Shown here: one piece after another, positions 3,664 through 10,094 of the stretch | Layout of the letters: every line of letters begins with the position of its first letter | How positions within the stretch are numbered: the first letter of the stretch is position 1 | Source: Desulfobacterales bacterium | GTDB lineage: Bacteria > Desulfobacterota > Desulfobacteria > Desulfobacterales > UBA11574 | Assembly: GCA_030145345.1 (NCBI GenBank) | Contig: JAQYVT010000019.1 | Location: forward strand, 1-39,143 | DNA length: 39,143 nucleotides | Reading direction: 5' to 3' | Made by a program: the position numbers and the translations under genes | The notes under the pieces: generated by a model | Told to the model about the DNA's origin: nothing | Seen by the model: only the letters and a program-made list of their open reading frames with translations | The model's database searches: none

Positions 3664-4626
3664 TTATTTTAATTCGATGGCATAACTGTCGAGCGGTGGT
3701 ATTCGCTGAATCAAGCCCTGGGTTTTTAGAAATTTTGCAAAGCGCTGATAACGGGCGTGATCCAGGGCACCCGGGCGAAGTGCAAAACGCGGAAGGGTAT
3801 CCCGCCATGCCAGACGATTCAGCTTGTTATCCAGATCCTTTCGTCCACGAACAAATAACTTCCAGCTTTCTTCCGGATGATTGACCAGAAACCGAACCCC
3901 TGCCTCCATTGCATCAATGAATTTTCTCAATTTTGGGTTTTTGAGATTATCGTGATGGGCAACGAGTATCAGCTCGTCATAGGGGGGAATTCCATATTCC
4001 TCGACAAAAAAGGCCCGGCCGGGTCGCCCTTCGATATCCATCTGATTCAATTCAAAGTTTCGAAAGGCACCGATAACTGCATCTGTCGCTCCGGAAAACA
4101 GGGATGGGGACAGAGAGAAATTAACATTCACCAGTTTGATATCGTCCAGGGACAGCCCTTGGGTAGCAAGCATGGCCTTGAGAATAACGGTCTCAAAACC
4201 TCCGATTGAATAACCGACTGTTTTTCCTTTAAGATCGGCAATCGATTTGATATCACTGTCTGCCAGAACGACCAATGTATTCAATGGCGTTGCGATTAAG
4301 GTGGCGATTCGAACCACCGGCAGGCCCTGATCGACATGAAGATAATGCTGGGGCTGATAGGACACGGCAATGTCGGCCTTTTTTGCTGAAACCAGTTTTG
4401 GCGGATCATTCGGGTTGGAAGGAACTTGAAATTCAACATCCAGTCCCCGCTCGCTGAAGAATCCTTTTTCCAAAGCGACAAACAGCGGTCCATGGTCCGG
4501 ATTTACAAACCAGTCGAGCACAACCGTGACTTTGTCCGAGGCGTGAATCCCCGTGGAGACCCCTCCCAAGAGGGCCATTATTGTGAAAAACAATGTTAAG
4601 GACATTCGTTTCATATTTCGTTTCAT
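3664..4626 (-). CDS. thiY: ABC transporter substrate-binding protein, thiamine-pyrimidine type (ThiY-like)
   Basis: A 320-residue exported protein of the NMT1/THI5-like periplasmic-binding superfamily. Residues 1-29 form a signal peptide ending GIHAS-DK. The mature N-terminus KVTVVLDWFVNPDHGPLFVA is the family's typical opening strand and ligand-pocket loop, followed by KGFFSERGLDVEF and the domain-crossing segment DLKGKTVGYSIGGFE. ThiY proteins deliver HMP or its formylaminopyrimidine salvage form to a ThiXZ importer. It is the last gene of a three-gene minus operon under a TPP riboswitch, 13 nt after the permease. Its start region carries a 12-bp tandem duplication (ATGAAACGAAAT) giving MKRNMKRM and therefore three possible in-frame ATGs; the first is used because AAAAGGAAA precedes it. 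Confidence 0.87.
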   Translation of the reverse strand: MKRNMKRMSLTLFFTIMALLGGVSTGIHASDKVTVVLDWFVNPDHGPLFVALEKGFFSERGLDVEFQVPSNPNDPPKLVSAKKADIAVSYQPQHYLHVDQGLPVVRIATLIATPLNTLVVLADSDIKSIADLKGKTVGYSIGGFETVILKAMLATQGLSLDDIKLVNVNFSLSPSLFSGATDAVIGAFRNFELNQMDIEGRPGRAFFVEEYGIPPYDELILVAHHDNLKNPKLRKFIDAMEAGVRFLVNHPEESWKLFVRGRKDLDNKLNRLAWRDTLPRFALRPGALDHARYQRFAKFLKTQGLIQRIPPLDSYAIELK

Positions 4627-4639
4627 ATTTCGTTTCCTT

Positions 4640-5386
4640 TTATTCCGTTTCTTCTTTCTGCCAATAAACGATTTTTATCATTGCCCAGTCCACTGAAAAG
4701 TAGATGGACAGGGATAGGACCCCGAGAACGACCAGTGCCGCGAACATGATATCGATTTGCATGCGAGCATTGGCGTGAAGCATATAAAAACCAAGGCCTT
4801 TGCTGGACCCGACCCATTCCCCGACAACGGCGCCAATGGGTGCAACAGCGGTTGCAACCCGCAGGCCTGAAGCGAATGCTGGCAGTGCCGAAGGAATCCG
4901 GAGATGCCGAATCACCGCAAGGGGCTTTGCGTTCATAACCTGGGCAAGCTCCAACCATTCGGGTTCTGTACTGCGCAATCCATCATAGAATGCTGCTGTG
5001 ACCGGAAAGAAAATTATCAAAACAGCCATGGCAATCTTTGAACTCATGCCGTAGCCGAACCAGAGGACCAATAGCGGTGCAAGGGCAAATACAGGGATCG
5101 CCTGACTGATGACCAGTACGGGCAGTAGCCATCTTTTTAGGGAAAAGGAAGCAATCATGGATAGGGCGCTGATGGTCCCCAATAATGTTCCGAGCAGTAA
5201 GCCGGCAATAATTTCAAACAACGTTGTCATGGCATGATCGAATAAGGGCCCTGCATGGGTCAACGCGGCTTTAGCGACATTTACGGGTCCCGGCAGAATA
5301 TAGGGGGGTACATGGGTCAAAAGGACAATGGTCTGCCATACCAGGACCAATCCAACGGCGATGAAAATGAGACGTATGATTCTCAT
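4640..5386 (-). CDS. thiX: ABC transporter permease (ThiX-like)
   Basis: A 248-residue inner-membrane protein with about six hydrophobic segments, the first at residues 3-22 (LIFIAVGLVLVWQTIVLL). It belongs to the BPD_transp_1 permease family of nitrate/taurine/HMP importers; the cytoplasmic EAA-like loop is around RSTEPEWLELAQVMNAKPLAVIRHLRIPSALP (the ATPase contact). Its ATG overlaps the stop of the ATPase gene by four bases (5383-5386), indicating translational coupling. Together with ThiZ and ThiY it should form an importer for the pyrimidine part of thiamine; the assignment to thiamine rests on the TPP riboswitch rather than on the permease sequence itself. Confidence 0.87.
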   Translation of the reverse strand: MRIIRLIFIAVGLVLVWQTIVLLTHVPPYILPGPVNVAKAALTHAGPLFDHAMTTLFEIIAGLLLGTLLGTISALSMIASFSLKRWLLPVLVISQAIPVFALAPLLVLWFGYGMSSKIAMAVLIIFFPVTAAFYDGLRSTEPEWLELAQVMNAKPLAVIRHLRIPSALPAFASGLRVATAVAPIGAVVGEWVGSSKGLGFYMLHANARMQIDIMFAALVVLGVLSLSIYFSVDWAMIKIVYWQKEETE

Positions 5387-6165
5387 GGGTTGCCCCCTCC
5401 CACAAGCCGGTCGAGCAATTTCGCCTGTAAGGATACAATTGCAGGATCACCGGGCTTGCGGGGCGGGGATCCGGGGGGAATCATGACCTTGCTCAGCTTT
5501 GCAGGCCGGTGGGTCATCACGTATATCCTGTGTCCAAGACGTAATGCCTCCAGGGGATCATGGGTCACCATTAAAACGGTTGCACCTTGAACCAGGCTTG
5601 CTGCAAGGTCCTGAAGTTTGAGTCTTGTCAACGCATCGAGTGCTGAAAACGGTTCGTCCATCAGGATTACAGAACGTTCTTCCATAAGCGTCCGTAAAAG
5701 TGCCACGCGTTGGCGCATGCCACCGGAAAGCGCTGAAGGGAGTGAATCTGAATATTCACCCAAGCCGGCATCTTCGAGGAATGAAATCGCTTTTTGCCGT
5801 TTTTGATCGGACATTTCGCCCCGCAAACGTGAACCCAGGCAGACATTATCCAGAACGCTCAACCAGGGGAGCAGCAAATCTTTTTGGGCCATCCAGGCGG
5901 TACGTCCCGTATGGCTGTTGCCGTCGCTGAAGTGAATTTTGCCGGAAAAGTTCTCACGAAGGGTGCCGGAAATCAATCGGAGCAATGTAGATTTCCCACA
6001 ACCACTGGGACCGATAAGGCATGTCCACTGGCCGCCCTTCACCGTAAAATTCAAATCGCGAAAGATCAGTTCGCCGGGATATGAAAAGGATACATTTTCC
6101 AGAATAACGCTCGGCGCAGATGGAGGTTTCCCATGCCCGGCAATGGTTTTGGTGCTGTTATTCAT
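5383..6165 (-). CDS. thiZ: ABC transporter ATP-binding protein (ThiZ-like)
   Basis: A 260-residue ABC ATPase with all catalytic motifs: Walker A GPSGCGKST (about residues 52-60), Q-loop MAQKDLLLPW, signature LSGGMRQRVALL (about 145-156), Walker B VILMDEPFSALD, and switch histidine in MVTHDPLEA. It belongs to the SsuB/TauB/NrtD-like group used by NMT1-type importers. It is the first gene of the minus operon thiZ-thiX-thiY, lying about 105 nt downstream of a TPP riboswitch, so expression should fall when thiamine pyrophosphate is plentiful. No strong ribosome-binding site is visible in front of the ATG, but the start MNNSTKTIAGHGK agrees with family length. Confidence 0.88.
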   Translation of the reverse strand: MNNSTKTIAGHGKPPSAPSVILENVSFSYPGELIFRDLNFTVKGGQWTCLIGPSGCGKSTLLRLISGTLRENFSGKIHFSDGNSHTGRTAWMAQKDLLLPWLSVLDNVCLGSRLRGEMSDQKRQKAISFLEDAGLGEYSDSLPSALSGGMRQRVALLRTLMEERSVILMDEPFSALDALTRLKLQDLAASLVQGATVLMVTHDPLEALRLGHRIYVMTHRPAKLSKVMIPPGSPPRKPGDPAIVSLQAKLLDRLVGGGNP

Positions 6166-6269
6166 GGTGCAATATACAGATTGTCCGAAGTTGTGACTTA
6201 AAAAATGGAATTATGTCTCCATGGATCGATGCCGGAGAAAGGAGAGAAAAATAAAGATGTATTTTTATC

Positions 6270-6365
6270 AACTTCCCTACGCCGGCATGATCCGGATCAG
6301 GTTCCACGGGTCGAGGCCTTAAGCCTCCTCTCAGCCGATTTACATTCGGCTCCCCCAGTGACTCA
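6270..6365 (-). promoter_or_regulatory. TPP riboswitch (THI element) for the thiZXY importer
   Basis: Read on the minus strand, the sequence contains the hallmark blocks of a TPP aptamer: GGCTGAGAGGAGG, then CCCGTGGAACCTGATCC, GGATCATGCCGGCGTAGGGA. The CTGAGA and the GAACCTGAT/GCGTAGGGAA blocks are the pyrimidine- and pyrophosphate-binding arms. Between the aptamer and the gene, a short hairpin ATGGA-N8-TCCAT followed by at least five U residues (6222-6200) could be the terminator of the expression platform. Confidence 0.93.
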
Positions 6366-6473
6366 ATGGCTGATTGCTAACACGAGTATTTCTGTTTGTC
6401 AAACACGGAACCGGCGGGTGGATAATAAAAAACTTGCTAATTTTTTTTCAGACTGATAGGGGAGTGTCAAAAT

Positions 6474-6560
6474 CCGGATAGGGGTGTTCTGATTTTATCG
6501 CAGAACTGAGAGCATACCCTTTGAACCTGATACAGTTCGCACTGTCGTAGGGAAATCGGA
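6474..6560 (+). promoter_or_regulatory. TPP riboswitch (THI element) for thiD and the Nramp-like gene
   Basis: The plus strand carries AGAACTGAGAGCATACCC, then TTTGAACCTGATACAGTTCG and CACTGTCGTAGGGAAAT, the conserved TPP aptamer blocks. P1 can form between TCCGGAT (6474) and ATCGGA (6555). Downstream, CGGAG (6557-6561) can pair with CTCCG (6582-6586) ahead of a T-run, a possible but unproven expression platform. This aptamer lies head to head with the minus-strand one, about 110 bp apart. Confidence 0.9.
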
Positions 6561-6675
6561 GAACCATGCATGACGTTTTTACTCCGCCATTTTTTCATCG
6601 TTTTTCCGTTCCCCGTATCGATATGGTGCTTTCGTGTTAAATTCTTAACGATCACATCGGATCAGGAGGTTTTTC

Positions 6676-7485
6676 ATGCGGGTCGCCCTTACTATTGCGG
6701 GTTCCGACTCTTCGGGCGGTGCCGGAATCCAGGCTGATCTAAAAACATTTCAAGCACATGGTGTTTTCGGTACGAGTGCCATCACCGCTGTAACCGTTCA
6801 GAATACCCAGAAAGTTTATGACATTCAGGAGATACAGCCAAAGATTGTGCACGATCAGATTATTTGTCTGTTTGATGACATAAAAATCCATGCCGTAAAA
6901 ATCGGCATGGTCTCAAGTATCGAGCTGATTCAGGCCATCGCAACGGCACTGACTGCCGTAAAACCACCGCCGATCGTTCTCGATCCGGTGATGATTTCCA
7001 AAAGCGGATATCGCCTGCTCAACCAAGATGCCCAGGATGCCTTGACACACCATCTTTTCCCATTGGCTGAAGTCGTCACGCCCAACATCTACGAAACCGA
7101 AGCGCTCATCGGCAGAAAAATCGCCACTGTGGATGACATGAAACGTGCGGCTCCTGACATCCTGAAGCTAGGCGCCAAAAAAGTGGTGGTCAAAGGGGGA
7201 CACCTTGAAGAAGACCGCGCCACTGACATCCTATTCGATGGTCTTAAATTCAAGGAACTGAAAAGTCATTGGGTGGAAACCAAAAATACCCATGGCACGG
7301 GGTGCACATTTTCTTCGGCCATTGCAGCCAATATGGCATTGGGTAAAAGTTTTTTTGAAGCCGCAACCCTTTCCAAGGTCTATATCACCGGTGCCATCGA
7401 ACATTCCCTGTCCATTGGGAAAGGCCACGGCCCCACACATCATTTTTTTGATTTATATGATAGAGCCGGATTAAACACTGAATGA
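6676..7485 (+). CDS. thiD: Hydroxymethylpyrimidine/phosphomethylpyrimidine kinase
   Basis: A 269-residue ribokinase-fold enzyme that phosphorylates HMP and HMP-P to HMP-PP with ATP in the cytoplasm, supplying the pyrimidine half of thiamine. Visible motifs are the N-terminal [18 protein letters not shown] (substrate-binding glycines and Asp), [35 protein letters not shown], and the C-terminal anion hole [15 protein letters not shown] with the catalytic Asp/Cys region. Length is normal for the family. The start has a strong AGGAGG site at about 6664. It lies behind a TPP riboswitch and opposite the importer of pyrimidine precursors, which fits salvage of HMP. A transporter gene follows in the same direction. 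Confidence 0.95.
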
Positions 7486-7518
7486 GTGTTAACCGGGTTT
7501 TCCGGAAGAGGTTTCCAC

Positions 7519-8766
7519 ATGCAATCCCTAAACAACTCAGATCATCGTGAACCCTCCTTCTTTGGCCGATTTTTCCGGCAGATGGGGCCTGCTTGGGTTA
7601 TCAGCGCGGTGGCCTGTGGGCCGGCCACCATGGCCAGTGTATCCATCGCCGGCGCCCATTACGGATACCAGTTGTTATGGGTCGTGGTTTTAAGCGCTCT
7701 TTTAGCCTTTGTGGTGCAGTTCATGGCAGCCAAAGTAGGGCTGATCGGTGGAAAAGGGATTATCGCTATCGTGGAGGAGCGCTGGGGCAACGTATGGGCC
7801 TGGATCTTGATGATTGATGCGCTTTTGGCGACCTGGCTGGCGGCCGCGGTGTTGATGAAGGCCCTTGTGGGAACCACCGGTCTTGTCACGGGGGTGTTCA
7901 CGCCCTGGTGGTCTCTGATCTATGTTGTCCTGATTTTTTTCCTGGTCGGCGTGGGCGGGTACCGTTGGGTGGAAAGGGTCTGCAAGACCCTGGTGTCCAT
8001 TGTGGTGGGCTGCTTTGTGGTCACCGTGATCATGATAAAGCCGGACCTGAGCGGGATGGCCAGGGGGCTTGTCCCGACATTTACCTCTGGTTCCCAAGGC
8101 GCACTGATGATGGCCGGAATTATGGGCGGTGCCGTTCACATTACCATCATCGCCATGCATACCTATAACGTAAACGCCCGAAACTGGGGACCGGATGACA
8201 TGGGGCTGGCTTGGACGGACACCTTCCTGTCCATGTTCTTAGCCTTCGGTATTTACAGTGTCAGCATATTCGTGGCGGCGGCCTCGGTTCTTTGTCCCCA
8301 GGGAATCGAAGTCAAAACAGCCTTTGATCTGGCCCGACCCCTCAAACCGGTGTTGGGGGTTTATGCCCACGGTATTTTTCTTGCGGGTTTCTGGGCGGCC
8401 GTATTTTCCACCATCATGCCGACCTATCTGGCTGCCGGTTATTTCATTGCCGACAAAATGAAATGGACCATCAGCGTCCGCGATACCCGGTTCAAAGTGG
8501 TTGTTTTTTTGGGATGCCTGATTAGCCTTGTGGGACCGTTGGTAAAGGGCAGTTTTTTGATACTGCTGGTGGTCATGCTGGCCCTGGGTCTCTGCGGTAC
8601 GCCCTTGGTGGTCTTTATTCTGCTTTTCTTGCTCAACCAGAAGGACTGGGCCAAAGAGCATTGCAACGGATGGCTGCTCAATCTTATCGGCGGCACGGCC
8701 CTGTTGATCACGACATTGCTGGCCGTGCGCTTCATCCTGGCCAAAACCGGGGTCTGGTCCGGATAA
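7519..8766 (+). CDS. Nramp-family-like membrane transporter with non-canonical metal site
   Basis: A 415-residue polytopic protein with about 11 hydrophobic segments, resembling the Nramp/SLC11 divalent-metal transporters. The first helix reads ACGPATMASVSIAGAHYGY, where canonical members have DPGN with an Asp and Asn metal ligand. The TM6 region reads MGGAVHITIIAMHTYNV where canonical members have the metal-binding Met and MPH. So the fold is retained but the usual Asp-Asn-Met site is not, as in Nramp-related Mg transporters. ATG 7519 is chosen because GGAAGAGG precedes it; an in-frame GTG at 7486 abuts the thiD stop. Being 33 nt after thiD under the TPP riboswitch, it may be a thiamine-linked transporter. 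Substrate is unknown. Confidence 0.8.
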   Translation: MQSLNNSDHREPSFFGRFFRQMGPAWVISAVACGPATMASVSIAGAHYGYQLLWVVVLSALLAFVVQFMAAKVGLIGGKGIIAIVEERWGNVWAWILMIDALLATWLAAAVLMKALVGTTGLVTGVFTPWWSLIYVVLIFFLVGVGGYRWVERVCKTLVSIVVGCFVVTVIMIKPDLSGMARGLVPTFTSGSQGALMMAGIMGGAVHITIIAMHTYNVNARNWGPDDMGLAWTDTFLSMFLAFGIYSVSIFVAAASVLCPQGIEVKTAFDLARPLKPVLGVYAHGIFLAGFWAAVFSTIMPTYLAAGYFIADKMKWTISVRDTRFKVVVFLGCLISLVGPLVKGSFLILLVVMLALGLCGTPLVVFILLFLLNQKDWAKEHCNGWLLNLIGGTALLITTLLAVRFILAKTGVWSG

Positions 8767-8865
8767 GCCGAATTTTCAAGAAGCGGTATTGCACCCTATT
8801 TGTGACGATTTTGGGTGCAGCCGAGGAAAACGACCTGAACGGTTTGAACTCAGAAAGGAATCCCC

Positions 8866-9465
8866 ATGAACACTATGGAAAAACTGGAAGAACTGAGGCG
8901 ATTTGCCGAGACTCTGGGGGCCGATCGGGCGGTGATTATACCGACATCGGACCTGGTGATCCGGACCGCCGCTTGGGCCAAGTGCTTCGTTCCGGCATGC
9001 AAATTTTATGGCAGCAGTATCATGTGTCCGCCGCACAATCCTTTGACTCCGGACGTTACGGAACGGATTGTCTCGGAATTCCAGCACGGAATTTTACTGC
9101 AGATGGATGCCAAGGTCGAAAACTTCGTGGGGGACCAATGGCGCAAACAGCATGTTGCCACAGAACTCAAACATAAAGAAATTGTCGCCAAACTGGAAGG
9201 CCGTGCTTTTTACATGGGGTTCCCCTTGGCCATTGGGTTTGCGGCCGGCGAGTGTTCCCTGTGTCTGCCCCATACGCCCTGCTCCGTTCTGAAAGGCCAG
9301 GACTGCGCCCATCCCCTCCAAGCCCGGCCGGCCATGGAAGCATGCGGTTTCGATGTCTTCACCATCGCACGCCGGGTGGGTTGGGAGCTTGTTCCCATCG
9401 GACATGAATCCAAACAAGATGCTGTTCCATGCGCCAGCCTGATCGGTCTGGTGTTGGTGGTCTGA
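8866..9465 (+). CDS. DUF2284 predicted metal-binding protein
   Basis: A 199-residue cytoplasmic protein with the cysteine pattern of DUF2284: CFVPACKFYGSSIMCPP (about residues 44-60) and, near the C-terminus, GECSLCLPHTPCSVLKGQDCAHP. Cys spacing suggests a metal or FeS site, but its function is not known. A good ribosome-binding site (AAAGGAAT) precedes ATG 8866. A second in-frame ATG is nine bases on. It follows the Nramp-like gene by 99 bases and precedes a P-loop protein, so they may be co-transcribed. Family assignment is confident, role is not. Confidence 0.85.
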   Translation: MNTMEKLEELRRFAETLGADRAVIIPTSDLVIRTAAWAKCFVPACKFYGSSIMCPPHNPLTPDVTERIVSEFQHGILLQMDAKVENFVGDQWRKQHVATELKHKEIVAKLEGRAFYMGFPLAIGFAAGECSLCLPHTPCSVLKGQDCAHPLQARPAMEACGFDVFTIARRVGWELVPIGHESKQDAVPCASLIGLVLVV

Positions 9466-9536: not shown

Positions 9537-10094
9537 ATGGAAGCCATCGAAGAATATATAGATCGCCGAACCCTCATCGTGGGAGACGTCAACTCCGGTA
9601 AGACCGGCCGAACGCAAAAGATACTGCAACGCTTCCTAAGGGCAGGGTATGGGAAAAATATTGCAGTACTCGACCTTGCCCCGGATTCCGTACGCGGCAT
9701 CGGCGGAAAAATGGAACCGCCTTTGAATGAACCGCTTGTCTATTTAACGACATCCATCTCAGCGCCCCGTCTTTCCGGCAGAAACGAAAACCATATCCGG
9801 CAGCTGGCCGAAAATAATTCAACCGCCATTGAAAAACTCTTCGTAAAATTACATCAGCAAAAAAGAGCGATACTGTTTGTCAACGACGCGACCCTTTACC
9901 TTCAGGCCGGTCATTTTAAGCGATTTGTAGAGATCCTCGACACCGCGTCCACACAGATCATCAACGCCTATTACGGCAATACATTCGCGGATTCCGAACT
10001 TTCTCAACGAGAAAAAAACCTGACGGAAGATTTGATGAAAATCTGTGACAAAACCATCACAATGGGGTGCGTGTCAAGGAAGGGAATTTGCTGA
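9537..10094 (+). CDS. P-loop NTPase domain protein, unknown role
   Basis: A 185-residue soluble protein. Residues about 12-22 give a Walker A loop (LIVGDVNSGKTGRT), followed by a hydrophobic strand IAVLDLAPD and a Walker B-like strand RAILFVNDATLYLQAG (about residues 109-124). It ends in MGCVSRKGIC. I do not recognise a named family; it is small for an ABC or AAA+ protein and resembles a maturation or chaperone-type NTPase. No ribosome-binding site precedes the ATG. Next to DUF2284, a putative metal-binding protein, a role in cofactor or metal handling is possible but only inference. Confidence 0.7.
   Translation: MEAIEEYIDRRTLIVGDVNSGKTGRTQKILQRFLRAGYGKNIAVLDLAPDSVRGIGGKMEPPLNEPLVYLTTSISAPRLSGRNENHIRQLAENNSTAIEKLFVKLHQQKRAILFVNDATLYLQAGHFKRFVEILDTASTQIINAYYGNTFADSELSQREKNLTEDLMKICDKTITMGCVSRKGIC

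Follow-up and report, generated by a model that had tools for sequence, protein, structure and literature searches.

What does an Nramp-related protein, a member of a family studied as metal pumps, carry when its gene sits in a thiamine locus? The question is raised by the window (the whole 39,143-nucleotide stretch of Desulfobacterales DNA analyzed here), in which a TPP riboswitch at positions 6470 to 6571 (forward strand; RF00059, 66.7 bits) heads four forward-strand genes: thiD (6676 to 7485; HMP/HMP-P kinase; TIGR00097, 342.8 bits, and PF08543), the transporter gene (7519 to 8766), a gene for a DUF2284 predicted metal-binding protein, probably accessory (8866 to 9465; PF10050, 114.2 bits), and a gene for a 185-amino-acid P-loop protein with the Walker A motif GDVNSGKT (9537 to 10094). 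A divergent TPP riboswitch at 6257 to 6366 on the reverse strand (78.3 bits; both riboswitches exceed the gathering score of 54.3 of the covariance model) belongs to a reverse-strand ThiXYZ-like operon, comprising a ThiZ-like ABC ATPase (5383 to 6165), assigned from PF00005 and its position behind the riboswitch (none of the matches listed for it is a thiamine-specific NCBIfam model above cut-off), a ThiX-like ABC permease (4640 to 5386; PF00528), and a ThiY-like NMT1/THI5 binding protein presumed to bind a pyrimidine precursor (3664 to 4626; PF09084, 238 bits). We think it probable that the forward-strand locus is a TPP-controlled thiazole salvage module, in which the Nramp-related protein imports the thiazole moiety (as HET or cHET) and the P-loop protein serves as a non-orthologous thiazole kinase.

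The transporter ORF runs from an ATG at 7519 to a stop codon ending at 8766 and encodes 415 amino acids; an alternative in-frame GTG lies at 7486, but the orthologue L003, nearly identical in sequence, lacks a start codon there. Its match to the PF01566 (Nramp) profile (232.6 bits versus a cut-off of 29.8) and its predicted fold place the protein in the Nramp superfamily, and a search of the source genome found no further PF01566 gene. It falls short of the NCBIfam cut-offs for MntH (PRK00701, 113.4 bits versus 430; TIGR01197, 54.2 versus 272.5) and passes the low cut-off of NF037982 (Nramp_1; 58.8 versus 50 bits). When it is aligned with the D. radiodurans Nramp, DPGN is replaced by GPAT and VMPH by VHIT, with the ligand changes D56 to G34, N59 to T37, M230 to H207, and H232 to T209 (metal ligands of the D. 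radiodurans protein numbered as in the published papers). All four replaced positions are invariant in 13/13 aligned orthologues, and the TM1 motif of the clade retains no acidic residue. Where the canonical Nramp/MntH signature has DPGN in TM1 and MPH in TM6, the clade has GPAT and either HIT or HVT, and the combination of GPAT in TM1 with GAVH[I/V]TII in TM6 occurs in all 28 clade rows. The first-pass annotation, made from the window alone, had proposed that the DPGN/Met metal site is absent and that transition-metal selectivity is probably lost as a result; the alignment, the orthologues, and the clade rows bear out the loss of the site.

Near orthologues occur in 7 of 60 kin genomes (the source genome included), with a fragment in G016, and 13 of the 27 loci obtained from the species collection belong to the clade, Desulfogranum, Desulfopila, and Desulfobulbus being represented among them (6 of the 13, L014 to L018 and L026, repeat contigs already in the kin-genome set). 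Across the phylum the clade is present in 17 of 395 genomes, among them G071, in which the gene is interrupted by an N assembly gap, and G109, in which it is split over two contigs. In a maximum-likelihood tree computed without the fragment L150 and without L039, the clade forms one group (support, 100/99), separate from the DPGN Nramps (100/99) and from an NRMT-like group (100/100) that we defined from its motif and one M-box locus; the deep branching order is unsure because some long branches meet in the tree. Known Mg2+ NRMTs carry DxxG-TxxA/T according to PMC8806188, in place of which the clade has GPAT and GAVH, so that motif and tree alike put it outside NrmT/NRMT. The SLC11-type phylogeny that had been proposed as a check thus sets the clade apart from canonical Nramps and from Mg2+ NRMTs. 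L149 (G216:C105:9906-11081), a remote Nramp relative that has MGPGT in its TM1 and GSAGG in its TM6, is nearest to the clade in the tree, yet on a very long branch. L028, a Coriobacteriia contig, has an M-box (Mg2+) riboswitch at 5600 to 5773, ~2 kb before an NRMT-type Nramp gene at 7974 to 9143, a pairing that agrees with the published link of NrmT to this riboswitch.

As the first-pass annotation had stated, the transporter gene starts 33 nt behind thiD (thiD ends at 7485 and the Nramp gene starts at 7519). A terminator scan found no terminator-like site within this gap; promoter and terminator scan values were within about 1.3 standard deviations of those of shuffled sequences, and the stretch between the riboswitch and thiD folded no better than its shuffled versions (z, 0.52). 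Counting the window, 18 of the 27 Nramp-clade loci with enough upstream sequence are preceded by a TPP riboswitch on their own strand, a tally that omits L096 and L097 (in which the Nramp gene is at the contig start), G146, and repeat fetches of one genome (L001 to L008). The 18 comprise 12 of the 14 loci formed by the window and the 13 species-collection loci (all but L019 and L022) and 6 of another 13 taken from the phylum sample, the remaining 7 of which belong to families f58 and f91; 7 of the 9 loci at which no TPP riboswitch was detected thus come from two families. The Nramp gene is the first gene behind the riboswitch at eight loci (L018, L020, L021, L089, L091, L092, L094, and L095), and in L025 the riboswitch is followed in a single run by genes for thiamine pyrophosphokinase, a ThiD-ThiN fusion, an ABC ATPase, a permease, and an NMT1-type binding protein and then by thiC, the Nramp gene, and the P-loop gene. 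The link of the clade to thiamine, which the first-pass annotation had staked on other members lying near thiamine genes and on no terminator separating thiD from the transporter gene, is therefore supported as real and conserved. At L092, a fluoride riboswitch (814 to 875) lies ~4 kb upstream of the TPP riboswitch-Nramp-P-loop cluster.

Most of the evidence for the thiazole reading is carried by the P-loop gene, of which the first-pass annotation made no mention. The 185-amino-acid protein has no Pfam or NCBIfam family, and no ThiM or HK match appeared either in Pfam (two P-loop proteins searched, E values up to 10) or in NCBIfam (five searched, E values up to 1). The Walker A motif GDVNSGK[T/S], present in 9/9 rows of the family alignment, identifies it together with the fold model as a P-loop NTPase; we discounted the PDB sequence matches of the family profile (designed PPR repeats, myosin, and helicases) as repeat or short-motif noise. 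The family occurs in 39 of the 395 genomes of the phylum overall versus 17 of the 17 that have the Nramp clade, one copy being broken (Fisher's test over the 395 genomes, p about 2e-19, uncorrected for kinship). The broken copy is that of G146, a genome with the Nramp clade, ThiM, and ThiG. A P-loop match was absent from three Nramp-clade genomes, those of L017, L023, and L024, and at L022, too, the Nramp gene has no P-loop gene next to it. In the same genus as the window, L177 (G001:C471, 665-1650) has thiD followed directly by the last part of a P-loop gene; G001 has thus lost the Nramp gene, the DUF2284 gene, and the greater part of the P-loop gene as a block, possibly as an assembly artifact.

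The other 22 P-loop genomes show what else this gene keeps company with: 16 have ThiW, 4 (G210, G248, G326, and G350) encode an MFS transporter at a distance of up to about 1.1 kb from the P-loop gene, and 2 have weak or partial P-loop matches. The Nramp clade and ThiW occur together in none of the 39 P-loop genomes, where 7 such genomes would be expected (p, 2e-6); over all 395 genomes, chance could account for their failure to co-occur (p, 0.62). The best score of the MFS partners, one below the cut-off, is against an aromatic-acid symporter family, a likeness that would also fit the acid cHET as a substrate. In G007, from the window's own family, ECF transporter genes lie beside the P-loop gene and there is no Nramp match. 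A TPP riboswitch was found at 4 of the 13 ThiW/P-loop loci scanned and at none of the 3 MFS loci. The DUF2284 gene separates the transporter and P-loop genes in the window and at 6 of 28 other scanned Nramp loci (L014, L015, L016, L089, L090, and L091; L015 ends before the P-loop gene), and it is likewise found with ThiW-ECF (L081) and MFS (L085) genes, that is, with three unrelated transporter types.

ThiW (with ThiU) is listed as a HET transporter and ThiM as the HET kinase in a gut-genome survey, which reports ThiW in only 64% of HET auxotrophs (PMC6593275), and an HMP-PP riboswitch class tied only to HET-P genes includes a thiW example in the account given in PMC6478431. As far as we have seen, the thiazole specificity of ThiW is a comparative-genomic prediction. 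The precursor cHET serves for B1 synthesis, and its use needs ThiM in Ostreococcus; ThiM's known substrate is thiazole (PMC5899164).

Among the 28 ThiW genomes of our sample, P-loop gene and ThiM exclude each other: the 16 with the P-loop gene include none with an intact ThiM, and the 12 without it all have ThiM (p, 3.3e-8; by family, 4 versus 7, p, 0.003). Their positions agree as well: in 15 of the 16, a P-loop match lies no more than 3 kb from ThiW on its contig (no more than 8 nt in 7), and in 7 of the 12, ThiM lies no more than 320 nt from ThiW. For these counts ThiM was scored as present at an E value below 1e-50, which 101 of the 395 genomes reach (76 pass the curated cut-off), a fragmentary ThiW in G171 was accepted, and G161 was taken as lacking ThiM. 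The latter genome, which has ThiW and the P-loop gene, carries a short ThiM-like piece (G161:C16:22764-23228; 66.8 and 54.1 bits) directly before thiC that resembles a remnant or a diverged ThiM. Because of this exclusive distribution and shared position, we conclude that the P-loop gene takes the place of ThiM beside ThiW. The exclusion is weaker over all 395 genomes, where ThiM occurs in 4 of 39 P-loop genomes against about 10 expected (p, 0.02) and three genomes (G112, G376, and G248) have both ThiM and an intact P-loop gene. Nramp-clade genomes alone are not depleted of ThiM (3/17 versus 98/378 of the others; p, 0.58), so it is the shared P-loop gene, with its context, that carries the step from ThiW to the Nramp protein. 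In family f62, a LarE-type sulfur transferase gene directly precedes ThiW and the P-loop gene (L071, 5579 to 7531; L074, 3621 to 5572); the L071 gene scores 334 bits against TIGR00268, and the L074 gene is alike by eye and has PP-loop/NAD synthase-type Pfam matches.

The thiamine genes at hand bear on which half of the vitamin would need to be imported. In the source genome we found ThiC (635 bits), ThiE (182 bits), and ThiD; matches to ThiG and Thi4 were only partial, at ~30 bits, and the ThiM match (E, 1e-5) is of the size given by ThiD itself. To judge by its gene content, this organism should be able to make and activate the pyrimidine and to join the two halves, and we found no known source of HET-P in it; since the genome is a MAG in 188 contigs, these absences may be gaps. 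For the wider comparison we used 37 genomes with strong P-loop matches, excluding G145 and G202 (whose matches are weak or lie at the end of a contig) and retaining G146 (broken), G210 (one in-frame TAG), and G152 (cut by the contig end). Thirteen of the 37, among them 8 Nramp genomes, lack both ThiG and Thi4; in G208, which would be a 14th, Thi4 is represented only by an 82-bit piece. Because Thi4 scores over 230 bits in 21 of the 37 and ThiG is present in 3, many P-loop genomes are not thiazole auxotrophs. A full-length Thi4 thiazole synthase gene directly follows the P-loop gene in G152 (G152:C304:55-1184), an adjacency that would tie the P-loop protein to the Thi4 pathway, but we rejected this idea given the 13 genomes with neither synthase. 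ThiC is present in 32/37 and ThiE in 14/37. The absence of ThiG marks P-loop genomes weakly, ThiG occurring in 3/37 of them versus 15/60 comparison genomes (p, 0.06), which were picked to be at least 90% complete and without P-loop or ThiW and of which 45 themselves lack ThiG. Several clusters encode ThiD-ThiN fusions (recognized by Pfam in L025 and L094 and by similarity in the others), ThiN being a different TMP synthase from ThiE, and several encode HMP importers, either ThiXYZ-like (the window and L025), represented by ThiZ/ThiX-like genes (L089), or CytX (L090 and L094). With ThiC and the ThiXYZ-like or CytX importers, the HMP half is already provided for, and it is the thiazole half to which the exchange of neighbors points.

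Structure models were made for both proteins. The Nramp model (mean pLDDT, 79.9, from a 13-row alignment) has EleNRMT and DraNramp as its best matches, with Foldseek TM scores (query) of 0.76 to EleNRMT and 0.65 to 0.81 to DraNramp chains; a YcsG model is also among its fold matches. The P-loop model (pLDDT, 86, from a 9-row alignment) matches CobA (VIA Z, 13.9), then Rho (12.3), thymidine kinase (12.1), and CobU (12.1); the root mean square deviation is about 3 Å for CobA, thymidine kinase, and CobU, and identity is 10 to 16% in the top rows. Small-molecule kinases thus appear among the nearest folds in this model; a shared fold shows no function, the best match, CobA, being an adenosyltransferase and the kinases coming no closer than Rho.

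We propose the following scheme. Low TPP would lead to expression of all four genes, from thiD through the Nramp-related transporter and DUF2284 to the P-loop gene, a joint control suggested by their order and spacing behind a riboswitch identified by the covariance model. The Nramp-related protein, its metal ligands swapped for GxxT/GxxH, would import HET [5-(2-hydroxyethyl)-4-methylthiazole] or its 2-carboxy form, cHET, two substrates that the present data do not tell apart. The imported thiazole would be phosphorylated to HET-P by the P-loop protein, in the reaction of ThiM and with no detectable homology to it. Finally, ThiE (in relatives, the ThiD-ThiN fusion) would join HET-P to HMP-PP, supplied by ThiC and ThiD or from imported pyrimidine. 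We infer the importer activity from the exchange of the Nramp protein with ThiW and MFS transporters beside the same P-loop gene and the kinase activity from distribution and neighborhood. On balance, the evidence tips toward an Nramp-fold carrier for an organic heterocycle (HET or cHET), working with a new family of P-loop thiazole kinases that replaces ThiM and is common to three interchangeable importers.

Could the protein instead bring Mg2+ or some other divalent metal into the cell, its co-regulation being explained by the use of Mg2+ or Fe/S in thiamine enzymes? Its Pfam family, its fold matches to the Mg2+ transporter EleNRMT and to DraNramp, a DUF2284 neighbor annotated as metal binding, and the description of YcsG, from an Nramp-related group, as a Mn2+ importer (PMC10448178) would all be in keeping with this. 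However, the ligands in TM1 and TM6 are replaced, the TM1 motif is without an acidic residue, and the protein lies outside the NRMT group; moreover, metal import leaves unexplained both TPP regulation and the exchange with ThiW and MFS genes beside the same P-loop gene, and we regard it as improbable. The first-pass annotation had suggested a thiamine-linked substrate such as Mg2+ or a thiamine precursor. Motif, tree, and context rule out Mg2+ as the best reading; the precursor stands, narrowed by the exchange of neighbors to the thiazole half.

Control by a TPP riboswitch would also suit a carrier that takes up thiamine itself or its pyrimidine moiety, the P-loop protein then being a thiamine or pyrimidine kinase, and a thiamine pyrophosphokinase gene does lie within the same cluster in L090 and L025. 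This we consider unlikely. An HMP importer is less plausible because several clusters already hold CytX or ThiXYZ-like genes, HMP is phosphorylated by ThiD, and the gene that the P-loop gene replaces beside ThiW encodes an enzyme whose substrate is thiazole (PMC5899164). It is very doubtful, finally, that the P-loop protein, rather than being a kinase, regulates thiazole transporters or serves them as an ATPase partner, with the function of ThiM coming from some other enzyme. Such a role would account for its company with three unrelated transporter types, for its lying within 8 nt of ThiW in seven genomes, and for a best fold match to CobA that is closely followed by Rho and further RecA-like ATPases, but a transporter partner would not be expected to be absent from all 12 ThiW genomes that have ThiM. 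The P-loop gene also accompanies ECF-type ThiW transporters that have an ATPase of their own, and thymidine kinase and CobU are close in fold.

If thiazole salvage by the Nramp-related transporter and the P-loop kinase is correct, one clade of Nramp-related proteins would gain a function, and an organic-substrate lineage would be added to the family; PMC12873925 calls the Nramp-related groups, apart from the NRMT-like proteins and MntG, entirely uncharacterized. It would also supply candidates for two gaps in B1 salvage, one being further thiazole importers alongside ThiW and ThiU and the other a thiazole kinase distinct from ThiM, and would alter growth predictions for anaerobes that otherwise seem unable to use thiazole. 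We found no report in the PMC literature searched that links an Nramp protein to a TPP riboswitch or a P-loop protein to thiazole phosphorylation.

Several known systems resemble parts of this locus. NrmT and EleNRMT share with the clade an Nramp fold, a noncanonical TM1/TM6 site, and riboswitch control, in their case by an M-box, as presented in PMC4072509 and PMC8806188, but they have DxxG/TxxA and a Mg2+ riboswitch where the clade has GxxT/GxxH and a TPP riboswitch, and they form a separate group in the tree and have a different partner gene. A second such system is PxpT, an NRAMP-family protein that Corynebacterium needs in order to grow on 5-oxoproline and for which its authors do not exclude metal transport (PMC13274462); its B. 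subtilis homologue is YcsG, the protein reported as a Mn2+ importer. Like the proposed importer, PxpT is tied by gene context, and also by a deletion phenotype, to a small organic ring compound; it differs in its pxpABC context and its substrate. Since PxpT is needed for 5-oxoproline use, an organic substrate for an Nramp-related protein has a precedent. The P-loop partner shares its fold with CobA, thymidine kinase, and CobU, from which it differs in its low sequence identity and in having mostly thiamine genes among its identified neighbors. With ThiM it would share the predicted reaction, and it shares the place beside ThiW and a complementary distribution among ThiW genomes, whereas it has no detectable homology to ThiM and a predicted fold close to that of CobA. 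ThiW, in turn, is a protein unrelated to the Nramp-type carrier, working in an ECF system or as a stand-alone S component, yet it is the listed HET transporter (PMC6593275), and what it accompanies is either ThiM or the same P-loop family that accompanies the Nramp clade.
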